The notes under the pieces: generated by a model | The model's input: the letters and a program-made list of their open reading frames with translations, nothing else | What the model was told of the DNA's origin: nothing | Database searches by the model: none | Translations under genes and position numbers: made by a program | Assembly: GCF_012184425.1 (NCBI RefSeq) | Contig: NZ_VTOW01000002.1 | Coordinates: forward strand, 558,001 to 622,000 | Origin: Candidatus Manganitrophus noduliformans | GTDB taxonomy: Bacteria > Nitrospirota > Nitrospiria > SBBL01 > Manganitrophaceae | Direction: 5' to 3' | DNA length: 64,000 bases | Part shown: piece by piece, positions 4,270 to 20,116 of the stretch | Layout of the letters: each line of letters starts with the position of its first letter | Position numbering within the stretch: the stretch's first letter is position 1

Positions 4270-4284
4270 TCATCCCCTTCTTCT

Positions 4285-6741: not shown

Positions 6742-7758
6742 TTATCGTAAATAGGTAATATGATTGTGATAGACAAAATGGCCGGTGATGGTGATATGGT
6801 CCTCGTTCCAAGAATCGGGCAAGGGAGCAAAAGGAGAGGCCTCTTTGATTGCGCGCACCGCCTCCAGATCGAGGACTTCATAACCCGACGTGGAGACGAC
6901 CCTCACCTCGCTGACATATCCGTTTCGCTGAATCGTGAAGGTCAAAAGGAGGTTTCCCTGGATTCCCCTCTCCGCGGCGGCCTGCGGATACCTCCAGATA
7001 TACTCAATCTTGTTCTTGAGCTTCAGCGTATAGGAGAAATATTTCAGATCGTCCGTGTTGATGGAGATCGTATCTTTCGGCGGAACCCGTTCCTGATCGG
7101 AAAAAACCTTCGCCAGCCGGTCGAGGCTCTTTGCATCGGCAAAAGGGAGACCGGGAAGACCGGGGACACCCGGCCGGGGTGGAGAATCGGTTCCGGCCTC
7201 TCCCTGTCCGTCTTGCCCGAAGGGAAGCGACGGAAGGGGTCTCTTTGCCTCTTCCGTGGCAAGCGGAGGGGAAGGGATCGGCGCGGGAAGGGCCCCCTCG
7301 GGTTCTGTAGAACGTTCCGGAAGAGCGGGGGACGGCGCGGGGACGATCGGCGCCGGAGGGACTTGCGGCTTCGCCGCCGGCGGCGCGATCGGCCCCGGCG
7401 CTTTTCCCGCTCTGGCCGTAGGAGGAAGACCCGGGCGCTCCGACTTTGGAATCGGCGGGAGGCGGGTCTCTTCCCCTCGCGGGATTGATTTTAGATCTTC
7501 TTCCCGATCGGTTCCAAACAAGAGACTTCTCGGCTTTGGCGTGGCGAGGACCTCCGGATCGACCAACTGAACGACTTGATCTTCCGGTTGACCTTCCGAG
7601 GGTATGCGAGCCGGCTCCCATCGCGCCCACTGCTGGATGATAAGGAGCATCGAGAGATGGACTAAAAATGAGAGGGAAATGAAGAGAACGTACGGAAAGC
7701 GGGATCTCTCTCTCCCTTCCGGGTATACTTCTTCGGCGATTTCATCGTAGAGGTGCAT
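6742..7758 (-). CDS. tonB: TonB family energy transducer
   Basis: 338 residues from ATG 7758 (MHLYDEIAEEV). A single transmembrane segment (residues about 21-41) is followed by a Pro/Ala-rich periplasmic spacer to about residue 230 and a TonB C-terminal domain with IEYIWRYPQAAAERGIQGN, GYVSEVRVVSTSGYEVLD and ASPFAPLPDSW. It should carry proton-motive energy from ExbBD to outer-membrane transporters; no exbB, exbD or receptor gene is in this window. A strong promoter abuts the ATG at 7758. The frame also opens at 7788, inside that promoter, so the shorter start is preferred. Confidence 0.88.
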   Translation of the reverse strand: MHLYDEIAEEVYPEGRERSRFPYVLFISLSFLVHLSMLLIIQQWARWEPARIPSEGQPEDQVVQLVDPEVLATPKPRSLLFGTDREEDLKSIPRGEETRLPPIPKSERPGLPPTARAGKAPGPIAPPAAKPQVPPAPIVPAPSPALPERSTEPEGALPAPIPSPPLATEEAKRPLPSLPFGQDGQGEAGTDSPPRPGVPGLPGLPFADAKSLDRLAKVFSDQERVPPKDTISINTDDLKYFSYTLKLKNKIEYIWRYPQAAAERGIQGNLLLTFTIQRNGYVSEVRVVSTSGYEVLDLEAVRAIKEASPFAPLPDSWNEDHITITGHFVYHNHITYLR

Positions 7759-7765
7759 GGAACGG

Positions 7766-7793
7766 ATTATAACATAACGGCAACACACATCAA
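7766..7793 (-). promoter_or_regulatory. Sigma70-like promoter of tonB, predicts leaderless mRNA
   Basis: Minus strand: -35 TTGATG (7793-7788), 16-base spacer, perfect -10 TATAAT (7771-7766). Only 7 bases separate the -10 box from ATG 7758, so transcription should begin at or beside the start codon. Confidence 0.75.
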
Positions 7794-7819
7794 AGGCGAT
7801 GCCCGTCCCCGCACCTCGG

Positions 7820-7848
7820 TTGACAGAACCCTTTAATTTTCATAAGAT
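7820..7848 (+). promoter_or_regulatory. Sigma70-like promoter of the DUF192 gene, predicts leaderless mRNA
   Basis: Perfect -35 TTGACA (7820-7825), 17-base spacer, -10 TAAGAT (7843-7848), then 6 bases (AACCCC) and ATG at 7855. No room is left for a ribosome binding site. Confidence 0.8.
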
Positions 7849-7854
7849 AACCCC

Positions 7855-8301
7855 ATGCGAAAACCGACTTTTATTGCGCTGCTCTTCCTTGCAACGGCCC
7901 TCTCCTGGAATTCGGCCTTTTCGGAAAAGCCGCCCGCCCGCCGCACCGTTATTTTTCCAAGCGGCACCCAGATCCATGCCGAAGTGGCCGATACCCCTGA
8001 AGCGAGGAATACCGGGCTGATGTTCCGTGATTCCCTTCCGTCCGGCGGCGGGATGCTTTTTGTTTTTCAAGAGGCGCGCCCTTATCTTTTCTGGATGAAG
8101 AACTGCAAATTCCCGATCGACATCATCTGGTTCAACGAACAGAAGGAAATCATCTTCATCTCCGAGAAAACCCCTCCCTGCAAAGAGGACCCCTGCCCGA
8201 ATTACGGGCCGCTCGATAAAAATGCCCTCTATGTCATCGAGGTTGCATCGGGGTTTGCAGCAAAGGAAAAACTGAAATTGGGAATGAAGGTCCGATTTTA
8301 G
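7855..8301 (+). CDS. DUF192 domain protein, exported
   Basis: 148 residues. A signal peptide (MRKPTFIALLFLATALSW, cleavage near AFSEK) is followed by a complete DUF192 domain: EVADTPEARNTGLMFRDSLP, GGGMLFVFQEARPYLFWMKN, FPIDIIWFNEQKEIIFI and YVIEVASGFAAKEKLKLGMK. DUF192 proteins are small, mostly extracytoplasmic beta-rich proteins without an established activity. The gene is divergent from tonB, with both promoters in the 97-base gap. Confidence 0.9.
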   Translation: MRKPTFIALLFLATALSWNSAFSEKPPARRTVIFPSGTQIHAEVADTPEARNTGLMFRDSLPSGGGMLFVFQEARPYLFWMKNCKFPIDIIWFNEQKEIIFISEKTPPCKEDPCPNYGPLDKNALYVIEVASGFAAKEKLKLGMKVRF

Positions 8302-18982: not shown

Positions 18983-20116
18983 ATGATGAACCAATCTCTT
19001 TCAGTCCTCACGGTGATCTTCCTCTTCCTGGAAGCAGGTTGTGTCAAACCCGAACCGCCCCCGCCGAATCCTTTCCGAGAGCCGATCACCTACGCGGTTG
19101 GGCATAGCCCCTCGTTCGTCGGCGCCGCCGACCTGAATCAAGACGGCTTCCTCGATCTGGCGGTGGCCAATACCGAAGACAACAACGTCTTTCTTCTCAT
19201 CAACAACAAAGACGGAAGCTTTCAAGATCCGGTCCAGCTCAAAACCGGACGGCAGCCCCGATCGATCGCCTTCGGGGATTTTAACGAAGACGGAAAGGTT
19301 GATCTGGCCGCCCTCAACAACGATGAAGATAACCTCTCTCTTTTTCTCAACCAAGGCCACGTCCTTTTTGCTCCTCCCGTTATTTATCAGGTCGGCCGCG
19401 CCCCCTTCATGGCGACGGTCGCCGACTTCAACGGAGATCGGCATCTGGATATGGCGGTCGTCTCGCGCTACGATCGTCTGATGATCCTGCTCGGGAAAGG
19501 AAATGGCACATTTGAGAATGGAATGGTCCTCGATCCGGGAGCGATCCCCACCGGAATCATCTCCGGGCTTTTCAACGGAGACGAGTTCCTCGATCTTGCC
19601 GTTGCGAACAACGGCCCCGGAAGCCATGAATTTATTTTTTTATGGGGACGGGGGGACGGCACCTTCGAGAAGGGAGAAAAAGGGACCGCCGGGATGAACC
19701 CGCTGAGCCTGATCTCGGAAGACTTCAATCAAGACGGCCTCCCCGATATTGTGGTCGTGAACGGCCTTGGAGATTCCCTCTCCCTTTTTCTTCAAGAGAA
19801 AGAGGGCCGCTACGGGAAAGCGCATCATTTCGGGGCGGAGGGAGGACCGGTCGCCGCCGTCGCGGCCGATTTCAGCGGAGACGGTCTCCTCGATCTGGTC
19901 GTCGCCAACAGCCGGAGTTCGAATATCTCCTTTTTAGCCGGAAAAGGGGACGGGACCTTCCATCACCCTCCTTTGAATATCCGCACCGGCGTCGGACCCT
20001 TTTCAATCGCGACTGGAGATTTTAACCAGGACGGTTTCCTCGACATCGTCGTCGCCAATAACGAAGATCAAAACCTTTCGCTCCTGATCGGAAAACAAAG
20101 AAAGAGGAGGGATTGA
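18983..20116 (+). CDS. FG-GAP/VCBS repeat lipoprotein (beta-propeller)
   Basis: 377 residues. A lipoprotein signal (MMNQSLSVLTVIFLFLEAGC, Cys20) is followed by seven repeats built on DxNxDGxxDLAVAN, for example DLNQDGFLDLAVAN, DFNEDGKVDLAALN, DFNGDRHLDMAVVS and DFNQDGFLDIVVANNED, enough for one seven-bladed propeller with Ca-binding loops as in integrin alpha subunits. A surface or periplasmic binding role is likely. The frame is open from 18857, but the promoter at 18948-18975 places the start at 18983. The stop overlaps the -35 box of the next gene. Confidence 0.85.
   Translation: MMNQSLSVLTVIFLFLEAGCVKPEPPPPNPFREPITYAVGHSPSFVGAADLNQDGFLDLAVANTEDNNVFLLINNKDGSFQDPVQLKTGRQPRSIAFGDFNEDGKVDLAALNNDEDNLSLFLNQGHVLFAPPVIYQVGRAPFMATVADFNGDRHLDMAVVSRYDRLMILLGKGNGTFENGMVLDPGAIPTGIISGLFNGDEFLDLAVANNGPGSHEFIFLWGRGDGTFEKGEKGTAGMNPLSLISEDFNQDGLPDIVVVNGLGDSLSLFLQEKEGRYGKAHHFGAEGGPVAAVAADFSGDGLLDLVVANSRSSNISFLAGKGDGTFHHPPLNIRTGVGPFSIATGDFNQDGFLDIVVANNEDQNLSLLIGKQRKRRD

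Follow-up and report, generated by a model that had tools for sequence, protein, structure and literature searches.

The divergently transcribed tonB and DUF192 genes of Candidatus Manganitrophus noduliformans are very probably transcribed from sigma-70-type promoters that start at the A of each AUG, and translated without a leader. Housekeeping promoters would drive both genes, each with a −10 box that ends 6−7 nt before the start codon. In sigma-70 promoters this spacing puts the transcription start at the A, and with both promoters lying so near to the start codons, the AUG is probably the very first codon of each message. We infer that RNA polymerase starts on this A or no more than about 1 nt away from it, which would leave both mRNAs essentially without a 5′ UTR, and that the 5′-terminal AUG is recognized by 70S ribosomes or by subunits loaded with initiator tRNA. 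Within the genus, this leaderless route would be a minority mode beside Shine-Dalgarno (SD)-led initiation. Leaderless mRNAs had been proposed for the two genes in a preliminary description of the DNA, and this reading now appears well supported by the conserved position and sequence of the promoters and by the conserved N-terminal protein sequence.

The promoter anatomy was read directly from the window, the 64,000-nt stretch of DNA analysed here. The tonB gene (6742−7758, reverse strand) encodes 338 aa with a TonB C-terminal domain (Pfam TonB_C, E 1.1e-16). Upstream of its ATG (7756−7758), the predicted 5′ end of the mRNA, lie 7 nt (CCGTTCC), a −10 box TATAAT (7766−7771) preceded by TG, a 16-nt spacing and a −35 box TTGATG (7788−7793). 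On the forward strand, the DUF192 (COG1430) gene (7855−8301) encodes 148 aa with a signal-peptide-like N-terminus (Pfam DUF192, E 6.4e-32). Its −35 box TTGACA (7820−7825) is followed after 17 nt by the −10 box TAAGAT (7843−7848), then by 6 nt (AACCCC) and the ATG (7855−7857), where the mRNA is likewise predicted to begin. A spacer of 26 bp (7794−7819) separates the two −35 boxes, so the promoters stand back to back without overlap. Both −10 boxes thus lie within 5−9 nt of the start codon, and neither intervening sequence contains an SD motif. The geometry given in the preliminary description was correct to the base, as was its remark that neither gene has room for an SD site. No further promoter-like site was found on either strand of the 96-bp intergenic region; positions 1−20000 of the window contained 20 promoter-like sites compared to 6.8 (SD 2.6) in shuffled sequence. 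The reverse strand also carries, immediately beyond the 3′ end of tonB, a neighbouring pair of cell-division genes, zapA and a zapB-like gene (5965−6511).

The arrangement was conserved among the relatives. In all six genomes of the genus, the tonB TATAAT was located 6−7 nt before the ATG, and the TonB N-terminus shared the sequence MHLYD(E/D)IA(E/K)E. The DUF192 −35 box TTGACA and −10 box TAAGAT were also present in all six, with the promoter ending 6−7 nt before the ATG. The intergenic region itself varied in length from 87 to 205 nt, and the spacer between the two promoters was poorly conserved in the alignment, diverging while the DUF192 −35 and −10 boxes and the tonB −10 box were kept. 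The DUF192 gene was found in 17 of the 18 genomes of the order, giving 17 loci (6 in congeners and 11 others), of which 13 had a TTGACA-type promoter 6−7 nt before an in-frame ATG. In the remaining loci the gap was 4 nt in one and 10 nt in another, and two had no recognizable promoter. The −10 box was TAAGAT or TAAAAT in most of the loci outside the genus. Between the −10 box and the ATG, the bases varied among relatives and the spacing remained constant; an SD sequence was never formed. Such conservation of the geometry (tonB 6/6, DUF192 13/17) makes an origin by chance very unlikely.

The same geometry was seen before other genes of the window, including the three positions at which the preliminary description had reported a recurrence (9736, 18983 and 34296), all of which proved to be real sites. 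A methyltransferase gene (8927−9736, reverse strand) is preceded by TTGTGC-17-TATAAG-8-ATG (9734−9773), with a weak −35 box and a −10 box lacking the last T, and this arrangement was kept in all four genomes compared. For a gene encoding FG-GAP repeats (start 18983, forward strand), the arrangement is TTGACA-16-TAGAAT-7-ATG (18948−18985), also kept in relatives. At this start (18983−18988) a tandem ATGATG is present here compared to ATGACA in two congeners, which indicates that the first ATG (18983) is the shared start. A DsrE-family gene has TTGACA-18-TAAAGT-6-ATG (34260−34298, forward strand), and its −10 box was conserved in four genomes. The domain identities of these three genes, like those of tonB and DUF192, were assigned by Pfam. 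One conserved case was absent from the preliminary description, namely TTGACA-18-TATTAT-8-ATG (24496−24536, reverse strand) before an aminotransferase class V gene (23323−24498).

The window was further compared with syntenic stretches of three relatives (G005, G001 and G003). Orthologues with a conserved start were found in all three for 36 of the 57 window genes, and the 21 genes without them were dropped. A −10 box located 0−44 nt from the start and conserved in all four genomes was found at gaps of 6 nt (DUF192 and the DsrE gene), 7 nt (tonB), 8 nt (the class V aminotransferase, 24498) and, once, 12 nt. The FG-GAP gene fell outside this count since its start had been called at 18986, and the methyltransferase gene because its −10 box lacks the last T.

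To place these genes in the context of the genome, 844 kb of the 5.17-Mb sequence was sampled, with genes called by codon usage only and upstream signals ignored. Among ATG starts, an SD core 4-mer was present before 139 of the 267 first genes and, within operons, before 129 of 212 genes. In 444 kb of the same genome, purines peaked at about −7 to −11, which implies a working anti-SD; no 16S rRNA or anti-SD stretch was found in this genome or in G001, G003 and G005, such stretches possibly being missing from the sequence searched. Before the first genes, 94 promoter-like sites (at least 9 of 12 matches) were found compared to 21.8 in shuffled sequence. Their distances to the ATG were bimodal, with 8 sites at 5−8 nt (0.9 in shuffles), 34 at 17−36 nt (2.9) and an avoided interval at 9−16 nt that held only 2 (0.7). 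With 8 of 94 promoter-like sites at 5−8 nt and an SD core before 139 of the 267 first genes, leaderless initiation was not the main mode of the genome; on these counts the main mode is SD-led and leaderless initiation a minority. Half of the eight sites at 5−8 nt fell in the 64-kb window, an uneven spread which indicates that the window is untypical and richer in such sites than the rest of the sample.

Start codon identity followed the same spacing. After 105 strict promoter-like sites (TTGAC-TANNNT), ATG was the commonest triplet at 6−7 nt, with 15 occurrences compared to a mean of 3.3 over the 64 triplets; GTG (1) and TTG (3) were not enriched at this position. The leaderless geometry therefore accounts for roughly a tenth of the recognizable promoters (8/94; 15/105). 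A pyrimidine is expected just before the start at a transcription initiation site, and C or T preceded the ATG in 10 of 16 leaderless candidates compared to 94 of 251 other first genes, as expected if these are initiation sites. The preliminary description had suggested that leaderless translation is common in this organism and had proposed a count of −10 boxes near start codons against shuffled sequence. The excess at 5−8 nt supports the first point only in part, the dominance of SD-led genes limiting its extent to the share given above. For the second, the count was clearly above the shuffles when a −35 box was required (844 kb), but TANNNT alone was not enriched at 5−8 nt before first genes, with 16 observed compared to 21.0 expected from baseline gaps of 10−41 nt. 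The latter result is probably due to a fall in AT content towards the start codon. For the leaderless signal to appear, either a −35 box had to be required or the baseline had to be a local or shuffled one.

The excess was also observed at larger scale, using the strict pattern TTGAC-N17..19-TANNNT followed by ATG after either 5−8 or 10−13 nt, with no gene required at the ATG. This genome contained 88 matches at 5−8 nt and 32 at 10−13 nt (p 1.6e-7), and the difference of about 56 may serve as a rough number of its leaderless genes with strong promoters. For the 18 genomes of the order, the corresponding counts were 868 and 427, and for 60 Nitrospirota genomes with a completeness of 90% or more they were 2809 and 1440; the 5−8 nt count was the higher in every one of the 18 and of the 60. 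Of the 341 whole-genome matches with an ATG 0−30 nt away, gaps of 6 and 7 nt held 21 among the 100 matches listed, all of which were from contig 1 and hence a non-random part of the total. Across families, the geometry before a ChaN-like gene was kept in three genomes of another family (49−62% protein identity), and that before the DciA gene in one (48% protein identity). No in-frame start codon was present upstream of the ATG in four of the six ChaN-like and DciA copies, the exceptions being the ChaN-like copy of G006, with an in-frame start at −9, and the DciA copy of this genome, with several. Of the other gene groups in the cross-family comparison, group D was dropped, as the gene from this genome shared no homology with the remaining members. 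One of the two relatives in group C (G007) was left out of the count, its reading frame extending over just 9 codons. Loci L083−L091, which for the most part duplicate loci of genomes already included, did not enter the counts a second time.

Three other explanations for the near-ATG promoters were weighed. The real transcription starts could lie further upstream, at other promoters that give normal leaders with a weak SD or none, the boxes near the ATG being fortuitous or minor. By a simple test 128 of the 267 first genes lacked an SD core 4-mer, so a missing SD is in itself unremarkable, and the failure of TANNNT alone to exceed a distant baseline also fits this explanation. Against it, the intergenic region offered no other promoter-like site in either direction, the DUF192 −35 and −10 boxes and the tonB −10 box were retained in congeners across a diverging spacer, and promoters in the sample avoided gaps of 9−16 nt yet recurred at 5−8 nt. 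Upstream starts were therefore considered improbable. Still less probable is a chance product of matching a consensus while AT-rich gaps are scanned. Many sites were inspected, and matches to the promoter consensus are cheap, but shuffled sequence gave 0.9 sites where 8 were found, the sites were conserved in four to six genomes, and the shorter gap prevailed in each genome of the order and phylum samples; this explanation can be given almost no weight.

The position of the translation starts was the remaining consideration, as the transcripts would have short ordinary leaders if translation truly began downstream. The gene caller ignores upstream signals, annotated starts are generally prone to error, and tonB has an alternative in-frame ATG at codon 37. 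Starting there, however, would cut off the hydrophobic N-terminal segment that forms the TonB membrane anchor. For DUF192, the next in-frame start is a GTG at codon 44, and the Pfam match begins at residue 40, so its use would remove the signal-peptide-like segment and place the start inside the domain. Residues from M1 onwards were, moreover, conserved among the congeners. Downstream starts, which the preliminary description had named as a finding that would overturn its reading, are accordingly very unlikely, falling between the two preceding explanations in probability. In the other direction, a GTG in frame with tonB occurs at 7788, but this codon is within the −35 box. Transcription from the A of the AUG and leaderless translation thus remained the preferred reading for both genes.

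The control genomes set bounds on the gene-based test. In stretches of E. coli K-12, none of the promoter-like sites before 140 first genes lay at 5−8 nt (0.9 in shuffles), a small control, and with the strict pattern 350 kb yielded no more than 6 promoter-like sites, a number too low for the count to be used. A plasmid of Deinococcus deserti was used as positive control, and 6 of its 71 first genes were recovered by the −10 box alone and none with a −35 box. High leaderless shares have been reported for the group of this species (PMC3160421, in the part of the text available), and the weak recovery therefore shows that the gene-based test is insensitive. The strict pattern gave 1 compared to 0 matches in two Deinococcus plasmids, which provides a low bound on sensitivity only.

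Leaderless expression itself is well known, and the genes described here would be a new, conserved instance of it with good conservation evidence. Leaderless genes with TANNNT signals have been described in Actinobacteria and Deinococcus-Thermus, and in the sections of that survey available (PMC3160421) they have a signal resembling a −10 box whose first T lies about 12 bp before the start, a predicted transcription start at the start codon and no SD, as here. Unlike those genes, the present ones have a strong −35 box (TTGACA) and represent a minority mode. In Deinococcus-Thermus, a −10 motif that works without a −35 box is located mostly 6−7 bp before the ORF in ~30% of ORFs (PMC12340547, available portion); the spacing is the same here, whereas a −35 box accompanies almost every clear case and the share is much lower. 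For leaderless mRNAs, whose initiation codon is at the 5′ end or close to it, binding at this codon is described as being mostly by 70S particles (PMC9031893, available portion). This would be the predicted route here, AUG and not GTG being enriched at the leaderless position. Among the groups listed in 2011 as having leaderless genes the Nitrospirae do not appear, and a term search of the same source found no mention of them (PMC3160421, as available). Searches of the open-licence literature listed no paper on leaderless genes in Nitrospirota, and the domain-wide survey PMC12340547, available in part, may cover the phylum. The main text, as available, of the comparative-genomics paper on Candidatus Manganitrophus (PMC9040806) mentions neither leaderless genes nor start sites nor the Shine-Dalgarno sequence.

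The result provides base-precise leaderless predictions, backed by conservation, for a manganese-oxidizing chemolithotroph of an uncultivated lineage and for a phylum unlisted in the available part of survey PMC3160421. As about a tenth of the recognizable promoters mark the start codon directly, they also help to correct start annotation, for example at 18983, and they delimit a set of genes in which to ask what keeps some genes leaderless while most use an SD. It is conceivable, if rather doubtful, that the Nitrospirota hold a small, gene-specific and vertically conserved leaderless set (DUF192, tonB, the ChaN-like lipoprotein, DciA, the class V aminotransferase and others) with strong −35 and −10 boxes fixed 6−7 nt from the AUG, and that this set forms a separate regulon-like class whose response to ppGpp or to the state of the initiation factors is independent of that of SD-led genes.

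Several nearby and related elements were also observed. Before related genes of relatives G008, G010 and G048 (loci L142, L143 and L141, with L142 assigned to DUF6502 by Pfam), the −10 box of a TTGAC promoter falls within the palindrome TTGGGAnTAnAATCCCAA, and the ATG follows after a few nt. The palindrome may be an operator-like element placed over a leaderless-type promoter. Close before the start of a Fur-family gene (Pfam FUR, 20120−20571) lies an AT-rich inverted repeat, TTATTAATAATCATTCTCATTATTAATA, whose resemblance to a Fur box suggests autoregulation. A 14-pair hairpin, TGTAGAGACGTCCCGACGGGACGTCTCTACG, was located at 4284−4314, between the genes at 2884−4269 and 4315−5652, and a similar sequence was present in G001.
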